From contig CALSSA010000009.1 of NCBI GenBank assembly GCA_943788875.1, positions 124,001 to 188,000 of the forward strand: DNA of 64,000 nt. Direction: 5' to 3'. Below are positions 13,504 through 39,607 of this stretch, piece after piece. The notes below the pieces were generated by a model. It was not told where the DNA came from. It ran no database searches and saw nothing but the letters and a program-made list of their open reading frames with translations. Both the position numbers and the translations under genes were made by a program. Each line of letters begins with the position of its first letter. Positions within the stretch are counted from its first letter, which is position 1. Source of the stretch: an uncultured Pseudomonadales bacterium. Its GTDB lineage: Bacteria > Pseudomonadota > Gammaproteobacteria > Pseudomonadales > Porticoccaceae.

Positions 13504-16500
13504 ATGTATTTATACTTCAGAGGAATACTAATAACGACAGCGGTTTTACTTGCCTCATGCGGTGGCGGTGGCGGTGGCAGTGGCAGTGGCAGTGGAAGTA
13601 CGACTTCTGCGGTAGCGAATTTGGCTCCTTTATTTTCTGGCACTGACAGTTTTGAGATCCTTGAAGGGCGCCAACCTAATTTAAGCTTAAATTTTTCTGA
13701 TCCGGAAGGGGCAGTCATAGCCACTTCTATTACTGGTGGTGTCGATCAGGGCCTGTTTGAGTTGTCTCAATCAGGCGTGGTTCGCTTTCTGTCCCTGCCT
13801 GATTATGAAAGTCCTGCCGATGAGGGCGGTGATAATAATTATAGGATTATTATCACCGCTTCAGATGGCACAAATCAGACTATTCAAAGTATTAATATTA
13901 CTGTGATGGATGCACTCGAGGCGCGTGTCGTCGATGGTCCGGTTGCTCGTAGTCGAGTATCTATTGTTGACAGTGGTGACTCTGGCGCCAATGCAATTGA
14001 ATCTAGTACGACCACTGATGAGCAGGGTTTTTTTGTATTACAACCACCAGAGACTAGTTGTGTTACCCCCGATGGCTGCGAAATTGTCATACTGGCTGTG
14101 GGTGGTGTGGATATTGTCACTAACAATGATTTGGGAGATCTGGTTTTATCTGGCAGTGCCTTGCTGGACAGGAACTTTAATATAACCCCCATAAGTACCA
14201 TGTTGGTTAATGCCGCTAACCCGCAGCTATTGTTAGACGGCTTTGGCCTGAATCTGACATTAGAAGATATAGCCACCATAGATCCCTGGCAGCTTGCACA
14301 GGATGAAAACTATGCCGCTGAGCAACTCTTAAGGGCTAACCAGCAATTGCTCGGTCTGATGTTAACGGCAAATAGCCTGATCGACGATGGGCAGATTGGG
14401 TCTGAGGACGTTAATTCAGCACTTGCAGCTGCATTGTCGAGTGCCATACAAAGCAACAGTGAAACTTTAAACCTTGCCAATGCGGATGTTCTATCTTCCA
14501 TATTGATTGCTTCTGCTGCGTCCCTAGGTGCACCTTTGATAGAGGGCTCTGCAGAAGTCGTTGCCGCCAGACTGGCAATGTTGAATCAGGTACTGGCCAA
14601 TGATGATGTTGCTCCTACAGAGAATGTTGCGGCCGCTGTGATTAGCAGCTCGCAGTTGGAGCTGCAATCTGCGGTTGAACAGCTCAGCGCCGGCGAGATA
14701 GATTCTGTCGAGTTTAGTAGTTTAACCTCTGTGGATGAGCTATTTGCCGAACTTCCCGTGTTTGCTCTATTTCCAGATTACGATGGCGATGGATTGGCTG
14801 ATGTCACTGATGAAGATGATGATGGAGATGGGGTTGATGACGAGCGCGACCCTTTTCCTTTGGACAGTAGTCTAACCCCACCAACAGCGCTCATTGCGAG
14901 TAACGTAGTTTCCGGTTCAGTGCCCCTAGTAGTGAGTTTTGATACTAGCGATAGCAGCATTGGCAGTGGCAATGTTAGTGATGTGACTTATAGTTGGTCT
15001 TTTGATGATGGATCTCAGGCCAATGGTCAGGAGGTTGAGAACGTTTACGCCATTGATGGGGAATTCTCTGCGCAATTGACTATCACAAATGGGGATGACC
15101 TCAGTCATAGTGCGGCTGTGGTCATTTCGGTTGCTCCGTCAGAGACTAGTTACACAGTTGCCGGCACGATTAAAGTGGCTGAATCTATGGCTGTGGATTT
15201 GGATGTTAATAATAGCGACTCAGCGCCCACCGAAAACAATAGTCGGGAGACTGCCCAGCTTGTTTCTAACCCAGTGACCCTAGCCGGTTATGTCAATACA
15301 GCAGGCGTAGGTGAGGAGGGTACCTCCAAGGTCTCTGGCGACGTTGATGATGTATTTGCCATCAATGCACTCGGCGGTGAAATTATTAATCTCAATATGT
15401 CGGATCCTAATCAAACAGATTTGGATCTGTATATTTATGACAGCATTGGAGAGCTGATCGACTACTCTATTGGTGTTACTCAGTTTGAAAGCTCTAAGCT
15501 TCCAGATATTGGAGGACTCTATTATATCAACGTCACGGTCTATGATACTGGCGCTTCCACCTACGTGCTGACTGTTGGTCGCGATGCAGAGCAGACCAGC
15601 ACAGGTTGGTCAGCGGCAGATGATATTGTGATTGGTGATGTGATTGTCCAGCAGCGTCCTAGTAAATTGCGCTCGATCAGCAATTTTATGGCCCAGCAGA
15701 AGTCCCTTGCTGCGGTGCGTAGCGCCGGGAACTCAGGTCCAGCGCTCTATAGCTATGGGCAGTCGGTTGCTGACCAGCCCGTTGCGTCTAAAACCAGATC
15801 AATTACAACTCAGGCACTTTCAGAATTAGAACTCAAGGCGGCGACATTGCGCAAGGTCAAGGCCATCTCGAAACAGGTTGGAGTGGAATACGCAGAACCA
15901 AACTATATACACAGGCGTTTGGCAATAACGCCAAATGACCCTCGTTATCAGGCTCAGTGGCACTATCCTAAAATCAACCTGCCTGCAGCCTGGGATATCA
16001 GTACTGGCGATATCAGTGTAAAGGTTGCCGTGCTAGATACGGGAGTTTTTGATCAGCACCCGGATCTGGTTAATCGCTTGTCAGCAGATGATTATGACTT
16101 TATCGATGATATCAGTAACTCTGGTGATGGCGATGGAATGGATGCGGATGGCACTGACCCGGGCGATGGTCGCGACAATGAGCTTTGCTCTAACAGTGAC
16201 TATGCTACCTCCAGTTTTCACGGCACCCATGTGGCGGGCACAATTGGTGCTGACAGTAACAATGATATGGATGTGGCTGGTGTTACCTGGGCGGGCGAGA
16301 TTATGAATCTCAGAGTGCTGGGCTGCCTTGGGGGCTATGACTATGATATTGCCAATGCGATTAGATATGCTGCCGGTTTGGATAACTCATCCGGCGTGAT
16401 TGTGGCCGATCCCGCAGATATTATCAATATGAGCCTTGGCGGTGGTGGTAGCAGTAATACTATGCAGCAGGCGGTGACGGATGCCCGTAATGCAGGACTG

Positions 16501-17610
16501 GTGATTATCGCTGCTGCTGGTAATTCTTCTAGCTCCCAGTTTTTCTACCCGGCAGCCTATGAGGGTGTAGTCTCTGTCTCCGCAACCAATTCACAGGACG
16601 GCCTTGCGAGTTATTCAAATTATGGAACCAGCATTGATATCAGTGCTCCTGGCGGGGAATATGGGGATAGTGATGGTGATGGCTATCAGGATTTGGTGTT
16701 TAGTACTCTAGCCATCATTGAAGATGGCGTTATTCAGCCTACTGTAGCCGCCTATCAGGGCACATCAATGGCTGCTCCTCATATGGCCGGCGTGGTCTCG
16801 CTTATGAAGGCTATCTATCCGCAGCTGACGCCGGATGATCTAGATGCGTTGATTGTCAGTGGGGAAATCAGTATTGATTTGGGCAGTCCTGGGCGAGATA
16901 ACGACTTCGGTCATGGCCGTATTGATGCGTTAAAAGCAGCCAACTATGCCGACCTGCTGGCCAATGGAACACCGATTCCGATGACGCCGATTTTACAGAT
17001 GAGTTACTCCTACTTAAATTTTGGGCGCCTTTTAAGCGCCATTGATGTATCGGCTTACAATAGCGGTAACGGCGATCTGGTGATATCTGATGTGCAGATA
17101 TCAGAGAGCTTTGTGACAGTTTCCAGCCCTGATTCGAACGATGGTCTGGGGGTTTATCAGGTGACTATAGATCGTACCGGGTTGGCTATAGGTATCTACG
17201 GGGCAACAATAACGTTTAACTCCAATGGCGGCGACATTGCTCTTGATGTGAGATTCGAGGTGGCGGCAGAGGATGACCTGACCTCGGGCAATGCTGGGTT
17301 GATCTACACGATTCTCTATAATGTGGCTGGCGATGAAACAGTATCTTCGACAATCTCTTCAGCGACTGATGGAGAATACCAGTTTAGTCTCGATATTCTG
17401 GGTGGCGTCTATAACCTGATTGCAGGGTCAGACAGTGACAATGATGGTTATATTTGTGGCCCCGGTGAAGCCTGTGGTCTTTATCCACTAATCGACTCTC
17501 CTGTCGATTTGATTCTCAATCAAGACCTGAGCGAGGTTGATTTTGGTGTGACCTTTGTAATTCCGTCCAGCTCAGATGCTGGTGTCAATCAGGCATTTAA
17601 AGTTAGATAG
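13504..17610 (+). CDS. Large surface subtilase (S8 family serine peptidase lipoprotein)
   Basis: 1368 residues. Lipoprotein signal with lipobox LLASC (Cys 19), then a Gly/Ser linker (20-32), suggesting anchoring at the cell surface or outer membrane. Domains in order: cadherin-like (about 38-135), an alpha-helical middle region (200-420), a calcium-binding Asp-rich repeat of the thrombospondin type 3 kind (423-455), a PKD domain (459-545), a pre-peptidase C-terminal-like beta domain (about 613-696), an I9-like propeptide remnant (about 760-800) and the S8 catalytic domain (about 820-1150). The catalytic triad reads D845 (VLDTG), H906 (FHGTHVAG) and S1088 (GTSMAAPH), with oxyanion N1007; all residues are present. 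A beta-rich tail (about 1150-1368) follows. Likely degrades extracellular protein. It has its own promoter region after the terminator at 13443. Confidence 0.88.
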   Translation: MYLYFRGILITTAVLLASCGGGGGGSGSGSGSTTSAVANLAPLFSGTDSFEILEGRQPNLSLNFSDPEGAVIATSITGGVDQGLFELSQSGVVRFLSLPDYESPADEGGDNNYRIIITASDGTNQTIQSINITVMDALEARVVDGPVARSRVSIVDSGDSGANAIESSTTTDEQGFFVLQPPETSCVTPDGCEIVILAVGGVDIVTNNDLGDLVLSGSALLDRNFNITPISTMLVNAANPQLLLDGFGLNLTLEDIATIDPWQLAQDENYAAEQLLRANQQLLGLMLTANSLIDDGQIGSEDVNSALAAALSSAIQSNSETLNLANADVLSSILIASAASLGAPLIEGSAEVVAARLAMLNQVLANDDVAPTENVAAAVISSSQLELQSAVEQLSAGEIDSVEFSSLTSVDELFAELPVFALFPDYDGDGLADVTDEDDDGDGVDDERDPFPLDSSLTPPTALIASNVVSGSVPLVVSFDTSDSSIGSGNVSDVTYSWSFDDGSQANGQEVENVYAIDGEFSAQLTITNGDDLSHSAAVVISVAPSETSYTVAGTIKVAESMAVDLDVNNSDSAPTENNSRETAQLVSNPVTLAGYVNTAGVGEEGTSKVSGDVDDVFAINALGGEIINLNMSDPNQTDLDLYIYDSIGELIDYSIGVTQFESSKLPDIGGLYYINVTVYDTGASTYVLTVGRDAEQTSTGWSAADDIVIGDVIVQQRPSKLRSISNFMAQQKSLAAVRSAGNSGPALYSYGQSVADQPVASKTRSITTQALSELELKAATLRKVKAISKQVGVEYAEPNYIHRRLAITPNDPRYQAQWHYPKINLPAAWDISTGDISVKVAVLDTGVFDQHPDLVNRLSADDYDFIDDISNSGDGDGMDADGTDPGDGRDNELCSNSDYATSSFHGTHVAGTIGADSNNDMDVAGVTWAGEIMNLRVLGCLGGYDYDIANAIRYAAGLDNSSGVIVADPADIINMSLGGGGSSNTMQQAVTDARNAGLVIIAAAGNSSSSQFFYPAAYEGVVSVSATNSQDGLASYSNYGTSIDISAPGGEYGDSDGDGYQDLVFSTLAIIEDGVIQPTVAAYQGTSMAAPHMAGVVSLMKAIYPQLTPDDLDALIVSGEISIDLGSPGRDNDFGHGRIDALKAANYADLLANGTPIPMTPILQMSYSYLNFGRLLSAIDVSAYNSGNGDLVISDVQISESFVTVSSPDSNDGLGVYQVTIDRTGLAIGIYGATITFNSNGGDIALDVRFEVAAEDDLTSGNAGLIYTILYNVAGDETVSSTISSATDGEYQFSLDILGGVYNLIAGSDSDNDGYICGPGEACGLYPLIDSPVDLILNQDLSEVDFGVTFVIPSSSDAGVNQAFKVR

Positions 17611-17945
17611 ACTGTGGGATATGGATTGATCTCTTCGGCTAGGAGCCGAAGCGACCCCTCTGGGGCTGCGTCGCGTCGCGACTTGTCCAAAATGCGATGC
17701 ATTTTGTCGAACCCACTAGGATTCTCACGTTATTTCCCATACATAAGAAAGGACTTTTAAAAAGGACTTTTAGATATTGCACTGGGATAGGGATTGATCT
17801 CTTCGGCTAGGAGCCGAAGCGACCCCCCTGGGGCTGCGTCGCGTCGCGACTTGTCCAAAATGCGATGCATTTTGTCGAACCCACTAGGATTCTCACCCTA
17901 TCCCACCGCCATAAAAAAAGCCCCTTAAAAAGGGGCTTTTAAATA
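17611..17945. repeat. Two tandem 168-bp structured units next to tRNA-Ser
   Basis: Two copies, about 17611-17778 and 17779-17945, align base for base at an offset of 168. The core (about 17625-17729 and 17793-17897) is nearly identical. Each unit has imperfect terminal inverted repeats (GGGATAGGG ... CCCTATCCC in copy 2), with the left end resembling the 3' end of tRNA-Ser (T-arm and acceptor strand). Inside are hairpins CTTCGGCT/AGCCGAAG and CAAAATGC/GCATTTTG, and a CCCC/GGGG stem within GCGAC/GTCGC. Each core is followed by a terminator-like A/T hairpin: intact in copy 2 (17913-17940), decayed in copy 1 (17747-17773). No ORF is present. Confidence 0.8.
17913..17940 (-). terminator. Terminator of tRNA-Ser
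   Basis: Stem AAAAGCCCC/GGGGCTTTT with T-run on the minus strand, starting 6 bases after the tRNA 3' end. It is near-symmetrical and could act in both directions. Confidence 0.85.
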
Positions 17946-18036
17946 TGGCGGTGGGATAGGGATTCGAACCCTAGATACGCTATTAACGTATGCCAGTTTT
18001 CAAGACTGGTGCATTCAACCGCTCTGCCATCCCACC
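17946..18036 (-). tRNA. tRNA-Ser (anticodon UGA)
   Basis: 91-nt class II tRNA on the minus strand with encoded CCA. The acceptor stem pairs GGTGGGA with TCCCACC, with G73 as discriminator. The anticodon arm is CCAGT-CTTGAAA-ACTGG (anticodon UGA). There is a long variable arm (ATACG-TTAATAG-CGTAT) and the T arm AGGGTTCGAATCCCT. It is intact. The two repeat units lie directly downstream of it. Confidence 0.96.
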
Positions 18037-18077
18037 TGATACAGTTATGACTGGATCCATTCTGCTGCGACCCTGAC

Positions 18078-18109
18078 AATAAAGGCGCTGATTATACAGC
18101 GCCTTTATT
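18078..18109 (-). terminator. Terminator of rne
   Basis: Perfect 13-bp stem (AATAAAGGCGCTG/CAGCGCCTTTATT, 6-base loop), 16 bases downstream of the rne stop and between it and tRNA-Ser. Confidence 0.8.
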
Positions 18110-18125
18110 TACTGACAAGTAACAA

Positions 18126-38686: not shown

Positions 38687-39607
38687 ATGGGTAAAAATGC
38701 TGGGCCAAAGCTAGTTATCGCTATATCGAGCACTGCGTTGTTCGATATGCGCGCGAGCCACAGTATTTACGAGAACGAGGGTGTAGCTGCCTATGCTCAG
38801 TATCAGCGCGAGCATGAGGACGATATTCTTGAACCGGGCGAAGCGTTTCCTCTGGCAACCAAATTGTTACGTATCAATGAGAAGCTTGGCGGTGACCCCA
38901 GCGTAGAGATTATTCTGCTGTCGCGAAATTCTGCGGACACTGGGCTGCGGGTATTTAATTCTATTGCCCACCATGGGTTGAATATTACCCGGGCTGCTTT
39001 CTCTGGCGGCAACAGCCCCTATAGATATGTGTCAGCCTTTGCCTGCCATCTGTTTCTGTCTACCCATGCCGACGATGTGCGCAGCGCTTTGGATAGTGGT
39101 ATGGCTGCTGCTACTTTGCTGCCATCTCAAGGTGGCCCGAGTCAGTCTGATGAACTGCGCTTTGCCTTTGATGGCGATGCTGTACTGTTTTCAGATGCGT
39201 CGGAGCGGATATTTAAAGAGCGTGGTCTGGATGCCTTTACTGAAAATGAAAAGGCCGCGGCTCATCAGCCTATGGATCCCGGGCCCTTTAAAGACTTTCT
39301 GCAGGCACTGCATGCACTGCAGTCTGAATTTCCCGATGGCGACTGTCCGATTCGTACTGCGCTGGTGACTGCCAGAGCTGCACCTGCCCATGAGCGGGTG
39401 GTGCGCACATTGCGGGAATGGGATGTGCGTATCGATGAAAGTCTGTTTCTTGGTGGTCTTAGCAAAGGCGACTTTTTGAACTCCTTTGGTGCAGATGTTT
39501 TCTTTGATGATCAGCAGATGCACTGTACCAATGCCAGCGAATATGTGGCGACTGGCCATGTGCCCCATGGCGTTGCCAACGAGGTCAAGCCTGAGTCAGG
39601 TTCCTGA
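38687..39607 (+). CDS. 5'-nucleotidase (PF06189-type)
   Basis: 306 residues. The pattern AISSTALFDM near the N-terminus and SADTGLRVFNSIAHHGLNITRAAFSGG, GGLSKGDFLNSFGADVFFDDQ near the C-terminus belong to the cytosolic 5'-nucleotidase family related to eukaryotic NT5C1 enzymes. Probably dephosphorylates nucleoside monophosphates. Starts 5 bases after the symporter stop. Confidence 0.85.
   Translation: MGKNAGPKLVIAISSTALFDMRASHSIYENEGVAAYAQYQREHEDDILEPGEAFPLATKLLRINEKLGGDPSVEIILLSRNSADTGLRVFNSIAHHGLNITRAAFSGGNSPYRYVSAFACHLFLSTHADDVRSALDSGMAAATLLPSQGGPSQSDELRFAFDGDAVLFSDASERIFKERGLDAFTENEKAAAHQPMDPGPFKDFLQALHALQSEFPDGDCPIRTALVTARAAPAHERVVRTLREWDVRIDESLFLGGLSKGDFLNSFGADVFFDDQQMHCTNASEYVATGHVPHGVANEVKPESGS

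Follow-up and report, generated by a model that had tools for sequence, protein, structure and literature searches.

The window, a stretch of 64,000 nt from an uncultured bacterium of the Porticoccaceae, carries on its minus strand a tRNA-Ser(UGA) gene with two tandem structured units on its 3′ side, at lower coordinates, spaced 168 bp apart. Read on that strand, the order is tRNA, intact terminator-like hairpin, unit 1 (17911-17777), decayed hairpin, and unit 2 (17743-17609) (Table 1). The match of unit 2 extends to the stop codon of a convergent gene (13504-17610, plus strand) for an S8 peptidase with a PKD domain, and the other neighbor of the array encodes a ribonuclease E/G family protein; 17611-18125 is free of ORFs of at least 60 aa. 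The sigma-70-like promoter match is weak, with one found vs. 0.9 expected in shuffled sequences.

Table 1. Features of the array at tRNA-Ser(UGA), in window coordinates
Feature	Coordinates	Strand	Basis or detail
Sigma-70-like promoter match, 5′ of tRNA-Ser(UGA)	18091..18118	-	Motif scan; TTGTCA-16-TATAAT, 11/12
tRNA-Ser(UGA), host, 3′ end copied in the units	17946..18036	-	tRNA search
Intact terminator-like hairpin, between tRNA-Ser(UGA) and unit 1	17912..17945	-	CCCTTTTTAAGGGG + T tail
TLR unit 1, adjoins tRNA	17777..17911	-	R1 121.5 bits; R2 103.7 bits, E = 5.5e-27
Unit 1, 5′ arm	17896..17911	-	CCCTATCCCACCGCCA, exact reverse complement of the last 16 nt of the tRNA, CCA included
Unit 1, helix P2 (GAATCC/GGGTTC)	17877..17892	-	Sequence, fold, model
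Unit 1, core	17796..17874	-	P3 17856-17874, P4 17838-17850, P5 17822-17834, P6 17801-17819
Unit 1, 3′ arm, copy of the tRNA 3′ part	17783..17795	-	AATCCCTATCCCA; 16/19 to tRNA end over 17777-17795
Decayed copy of the terminator hairpin	17744..17776	-	Inside a 51-nt direct repeat, 78% identical to the intact one
TLR unit 2, outer, arms decayed	17609..17743	-	Core 17628-17706; R1 105.6 bits; R2 79.1 bits, E = 3.9e-20

The array is built on a direct repeat of 151 nt (17615-17765 and 17783-17933, 90% identical, spacing 168), and the two cores are 98% identical over 114 nt. The minus-strand fold of unit 1 reaches -67.7 kcal/mol (z = -5.98), with none of 200 shuffles as good; the plus-strand fold is weaker (-56.7 kcal/mol, z = -4.65), likewise with 0/200 shuffles as good. 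The intact hairpin, the tRNA end, and the 5′ arm of unit 1 make up together a quasi-palindrome with 29-nt arms, 83% complementary and 8 nt apart. The overall layout had been described in the original prediction, and it holds: two units behind the tRNA with near-identical cores and strong hairpins, the T-loop-like GGGTTCGAC present in both units (when read on the minus strand), plus-strand left ends that resemble the 3′ part of tRNA-Ser (16/19 in the inner and 15/19 in the outer unit), and terminator-like hairpins, intact beside the tRNA and decayed further out. The general view of a structured element, partly derived from tRNA-Ser, with acceptor-like ends and in tandem behind the tRNA, is likewise borne out. 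The terminal inverted repeats GGGATAGGG/CCCTATCCC, proposed to mimic an acceptor stem, are intact in the inner unit; in the outer one, 4 of the 10 pairs of P1 are non-standard. What went unrecognized is that the units belong to a named family, the tRNA-linked repeats (TLRs).

The window pair is a two-unit TLR array, of the family of E. coli tyrT/rttR. At curated cut-offs, Rfam returns for the window two tRNAs and nothing else. Below the cut-offs, unit 1 aligns with RtT (RF00391), the RNA of the E. coli tyrT operon, at all 130 of 130 positions with 16.4 bits (cut-off 45). This full-length match is sub-threshold, whereas a pair at tRNA-Tyr in the same genome passes (68.8 and 62.4 bits). Both window units also match AaHKsRNA22 (RF02902) at full length, over all 101 positions, again below the cut-off of 39.8 (24.6 and 24.4 bits, E = 0.011 and 0.013). 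Other sub-threshold Rfam matches (a microRNA, sX4, etc.) were set aside, sX4 lying mainly on the tRNA and the rest being judged chance or palindrome matches. In a control set of 14 well-known genomes, RtT matches in one, E. coli.

When all unit types were aligned together with MAFFT, the consensus structure had just two pairs; 20 type-A units were then aligned separately. Two covariance models were used: R1, built from 20 units with the two of the window among them, and R2, for which 17 units were used, none of them from this genome or from E. coli; the E. coli units are in the training of neither, and the E-values of both models are rough. R2 finds the window pair (Table 1) and four units behind E. 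coli tyrT/tyrV (E = 3e-6, 5.9e-4, 8.1e-4, and 0.0095), one of them annotated as rttR, which lies behind tyrV in the annotated E. coli record. In R2 the sequences are held out and the structure is not, its pair list being inherited from an alignment (A2) that includes the window units, and its training units are relatives by choice, having been picked by DNA similarity to the window or by RtT. A blastn search of the window region against an E. coli collection (5,426 genomes) gives no match, so that the homology to E. coli is visible at the level of structure only.

TLRs were first described in 1978 (Egan and Landy 1978; Rudd 1999; both via PMC8144298). According to PMC8144298, E. coli K-12 has 22 TLRs at ten loci, each with 18-19 bp at its 3′ end identical to the end of the upstream tRNA or rRNA, and no function was known before that paper's own 5S-linked work in 2021. 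Elsewhere, Northern signals are given for Actinobacillus RNAs of the RtT family (PMC4986893), covariation support is mentioned for the tyrT RNA (PMC8250186), and RtT loci covered by reads are listed for an E. coli data set (PMC5331693). TLRs are defined as lying on the same strand as a tRNA or rRNA gene and 3′ of it, one to five per locus; the two units of the window lie in just this way. They share with the TLRs of E. coli K-12 the tandem arrangement, the unit end that copies the tRNA 3′ end, and the match to the same covariance model. They differ in the host tRNA-Ser(UGA) and in the lineage (Porticoccaceae), in a P3 helix that reads AAAATGC/GCATTTT and departs from the E. coli form, and in their degenerate tail copies, at 16/19 and 15/19 vs. 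18-19 bp of identity in the E. coli definition. At the same tRNA in relatives, the copies reach 19/19 (locus L048) and 18/19 (locus L014). The 5S-linked RrA, RrB, and RrF, of the TLR family like the window units, are processed read-through RNA; they bind Hfq and CsrA according to PMC8144298, whereas the window units are without GGA loops. The window array is real and clearly belongs to this known but poorly understood family, of which it is a member with decayed ends at a new location.

In these units, helix P1 is formed by a copy of the T-stem/acceptor 3′ strand of the tRNA paired with a complementary 5′ arm. Inside P1 are P2 (GAACC/GGTTC), P3, P4, P5 (CCC-loop-GGG), and P6. The 5′ arm agrees about equally well with its own unit (25 informative positions) and with the tRNA (21), a balance that favors neither. 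The model covers five helices, with P4 outside it, and all five covary in relatives. Among 80 matches (71 distinct) at 50 loci of this genome and of its genus, family, and order, 81.0% of the cells are paired, vs. 63.5% in shuffles and at most 47.3% in slid controls, and 34 of the 35 pairs have changes on both sides. For 77 matches (72 distinct) at 68 other loci, the pairing is 88.9% (shuffles 69.1%, slid at most 62.5%) and two-sided changes are found in 31 of the 35 pairs, with just 2 of 6 for P2. These counts come from model-fitted alignments, which favors the model.

The family is widely but unevenly distributed. DNA matches to the window unit are found in 17 of 56 genomes, its own included; 14 of these 17 are among the 34 other genomes of the genus. 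Over the class, R1 detects units in at least 66 of 274 genomes (own included), and RtT in at least 51 of the same 274, at least 19 of these above its cut-off. In a sample of the phylum, R1 gives at least 44 of 299, own included, with 27 outside the class and 25 of those in one family; the R1 and RtT tallies are lower bounds, with stricter filters and a limited number of candidates scored per genome. In named genomes, a DNA pattern occurs in 36 stretches, including Porticoccaceae, Oceanicoccus, Marinagarivorans, a Solemya symbiont, and records titled Rickettsiales and Micavibrio; of the 45 pattern matches in them, 31 follow a same-strand tRNA at a distance of no more than 700 nt. The original prediction had left room for a chance local duplication, with no copies elsewhere and no conserved pairing in homologs; DNA and model matches do occur in other genomes, and the homologs covary.

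Copy number varies. Behind tRNA-Ser(UGA), relatives have 1 to 3 units. The search of this genome with R1 yields 20 matches at E ≤ 1, of which 16 at E ≤ 0.006 are on the strand of the adjacent tRNA: two at Ser(UGA), one at Pro(GGG), four at Arg(ACG), two at Asp(GUC), four upstream and one downstream of Ser(GGA), and one upstream and one downstream of Ser(GCU). With the two Tyr matches added by RtT, the tRNA loci with matches are seven. Tandem units with equal or near-equal scores recur at other loci of the genome.

Several arrays have features of their own. In a same-genus genome, the array behind Ser(UGA) (L048:1340-1638) has a first unit with P3 of the window type and a second unit closer to the E. 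coli-like form, so that core types differ within one array. Some units at L009, L015, L030, and L163 resemble, by eye, two cores fused head to tail with no tRNA end between them. At L158 (record titled Rickettsiales), a coding sequence of ∼1.3 kb, transposase-like by eye, lies between tRNA-Ser(GGA) and two TLR units. Four tandem units with 18/19 end copies follow tRNA-Phe in this genome (L140, on C6). This Phe array was not retained as model-supported, its core matches being antisense only (E = 0.0042; with R2, 0.0056; in the R1 genome search, 0.074).

The ends of the units follow the neighboring tRNA. For 126 of the 157 matches, a tRNA or tmRNA gene on the same strand is found no more than 700 nt upstream (Ser, Tyr, Arg, Gln, Pro, Lys, Asp, and tmRNA), and the unit end is 19/19 identical to it in 56 of the 126. 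Compared with the best-matching end among tRNAs of the set for other amino acids, the cognate end is better in 90 cases, tied in 7, and worse in 29 (cognate median 18, non-cognate mean 11.3). Among the 31 matches with no tRNA upstream are some at contig edges, some units that precede a tRNA, and the antisense matches at Phe. These rates are biased, the loci having been fetched as TLR-query matches; the 157 include double fetches (at least L085/L122, L092/L125, L096/L112, and L104/L131) and four antisense Phe matches, and, the sequences being related, the counts are not independent events. TLR units are seen behind tmRNA in L057 and L130, with a unit end in L057 identical at 19/19 to the tmRNA 3′ end. 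The suggestion that the whole unit is a decayed and expanded tRNA-Ser is not supported: The ends alone track the tRNA, and homologous cores lie beside genes for Arg, Pro, Tyr, Lys, Gln, and Asp tRNAs and for tmRNA.

The reading that we prefer for the locus, with a probability of roughly 0.7, is that of a TLR array in which each unit would form a domain of the RNA made when transcription reads through past the tRNA. Such a unit may be seen as the "top half" of a tRNA in which the T-loop is replaced by a core of ∼80 nt, with P1 predicted to close a junction of five hairpins (P2-P6). The copies of the tRNA end at the boundaries are direct repeats, because of which unequal recombination could add or delete whole units, terminator included. 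Exchange from one locus to another may also occur, given that the nearest counterparts of some cores, including the window's, sit at other tRNAs. The RNA would most likely be released by the enzymes of tRNA maturation, because P1 imitates the acceptor/T-stem, and would then act as a small structured RNA. With a terminator-like hairpin between the tRNA and the units, read-through may be low.

The units could also be neutral leftovers, duplications of the tRNA end with terminator palindromes that arose by replication slippage and persist without function. The decay of the arms and terminator of unit 2 and of both tail copies agrees with this, as do the DNA matches in only 14 of 34 other genomes of the genus and the decayed units at other tRNAs of this genome. 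Five helices that covary across a class, detected in at least 66 of 274 genomes (own included), are not expected of such leftovers; nor are cores that remain 98% identical while the arms decay, although a recent duplication could explain the latter. We consider a neutral origin rather unlikely.

Quite improbable is the insertion, at the 3′ end of the tRNA, of a small mobile element, either MITE-like or a target of a tyrosine recombinase. Each unit does lie between direct repeats of the tRNA end, as known from integrase att sites. Similar cores also occur at different tRNAs: The Ser(GGA) core of one genome and the Ser(GCU) core of another are similar at 0.92, and the closest core to that of the window is one at Arg(UCG), at 0.79. 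However, cores at Tyr and at Pro group by locus across genomes within the genus, the units contain no ORF of 60 aa or more, and phages, plasmids, and viral contigs, searched at the DNA level, gave no match.

Cores of the TLR type are found also in other positions relative to tRNA copies. The 142 tRNA genes in the TLR-chosen loci have 111 partial same-strand copies of at least 14 nt, a rate biased by that choice. Anchored at the tRNA 3′ end are 77 copies, 76 of them downstream, and 59 measure exactly 19 nt and are thus broken in the T-loop. Another 24, all upstream, are anchored at the 5′ end; the break is at the D-loop end in the 13 of them that measure exactly 22 nt. The remaining 10 copies are internal. 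The 22-nt copies precede Ser tRNAs and continue into a TLR-like core; they occur in this genome, in four 155-bp units, and in L030, L032, L052, L097, L105, and L119, with a 20-nt copy of the same kind in L074. The four units of this genome (L137:709-1308, C2:179408-180007) are in tandem upstream of tRNA-Ser(GGA), and in each of them a TLR core comes after copied sequence, namely the tRNA leader and the first 22 nt of the tRNA, which makes them a 5′-side, D-loop version. At L119, ∼180-285 nt upstream of tRNA-Ser(GCU), a single Ser(GCU) copy has both its D-loop and its T-loop occupied by a core, the two being similar by eye. At L170:6870-7320 (record titled Micavibrio), tandem copies of tRNA-Gly(UCC) with the T-loop interrupted by a core are upstream of the intact gene, and in L174 and L175 Ser(GGA) copies are interrupted in the T-loop. 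Excision of the core restores a tRNA detected by ARAGORN at 2 of 205 candidate sites (L170 and L174; control 0 of 205), so whole interrupted tRNA copies are rare in the sample. The passages of PMC8144298 consulted do not mention upstream or D-loop copies, and a literature search, with most subscription papers outside its coverage, returned no paper title on them.

The motif of CsrA is a GGA in a hairpin loop. It is also discussed in PMC8144298. In 123 distinct cores (49 of the window genus and 74 outside it, selected with our own filter), the loops were compared with shuffles of the unpaired letters; P3 and P6 were taken as the first and last predicted hairpins, an assignment that can err where a fold has fewer hairpins. 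Outside the genus, GGA is present in the first loop of 34 of 74 cores (8.1 expected) and in the last loop of 32 of 74 (8.2 expected), vs. 6 of 116 middle loops (7.6 expected); 31 of 57 genomes have it in the first or last loop and 25 in both. In the window genus there is no such enrichment (P3 1/49, 1.6 expected; P6 0/47, 1.8 expected) and the pattern is opposite, with 7 of 70 middle loops vs. 1.8 expected. The loops of the window units (ATC, GAC, CAG or AGA, and CCT) hold no GGA. In L130, P6 of the tmRNA-linked unit reads GTACAGGGATGTAC, which resembles the CsrA SELEX consensus. The csrA gene adjoins directly tRNA-Ser(GCU) and its TLR units in genome G000 (C2:38587-38742 and 38866-39265), and csrA and a TLR are within ∼1 kb of each other also in G005, G225, and G103.

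That the units act as CsrA/RsmA sponges released with the tRNA transcripts is very improbable here: The enriched first and last, and not middle, loops outside the genus, the presence of csrA in 51 of 58 TLR genomes (this one included, a non-discriminating count), and the in vitro binding of CsrA by E. coli 5S-linked TLRs (PMC8144298) speak for it, but the window genus lacks the P3/P6 enrichment and has the opposite middle-loop pattern, the other 19 E. coli TLRs score below 0.01 in a CsrB/C predictor (PMC8144298), and the window units are without a GGA loop, so that this reading does not cover them.

Together with the positions of the interrupted copies, the loops suggest a tentative and rather doubtful extension of the preferred TLR reading. 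The TLR core could be a discrete structured module (∼75-100 nt) that seats in the loops of tRNA copies, either at the end of the D-loop or, behind TTCGA, in the T-loop, and both 5′ and 3′ of an intact tRNA. In that case the classical 3′ TLR would represent the truncated T-loop version, and the tRNA scaffold would carry a structured RNA, in many Gammaproteobacteria with paired GGA loops for CsrA.

The wider comparison is the interesting part, beyond the window array itself. One covarying architecture is found in E. coli, in marine Gammaproteobacteria, and in some genomes of other classes, with ends that follow the adjoining tRNA. The scattered names RtT, rttR, TLR, and probably AaHKsRNA22 become those of one family. 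The copies interrupted in the D-loop or T-loop offer a concrete test of the origin of the core, and the GGA loops a concrete test of the binding partner in many relatives.
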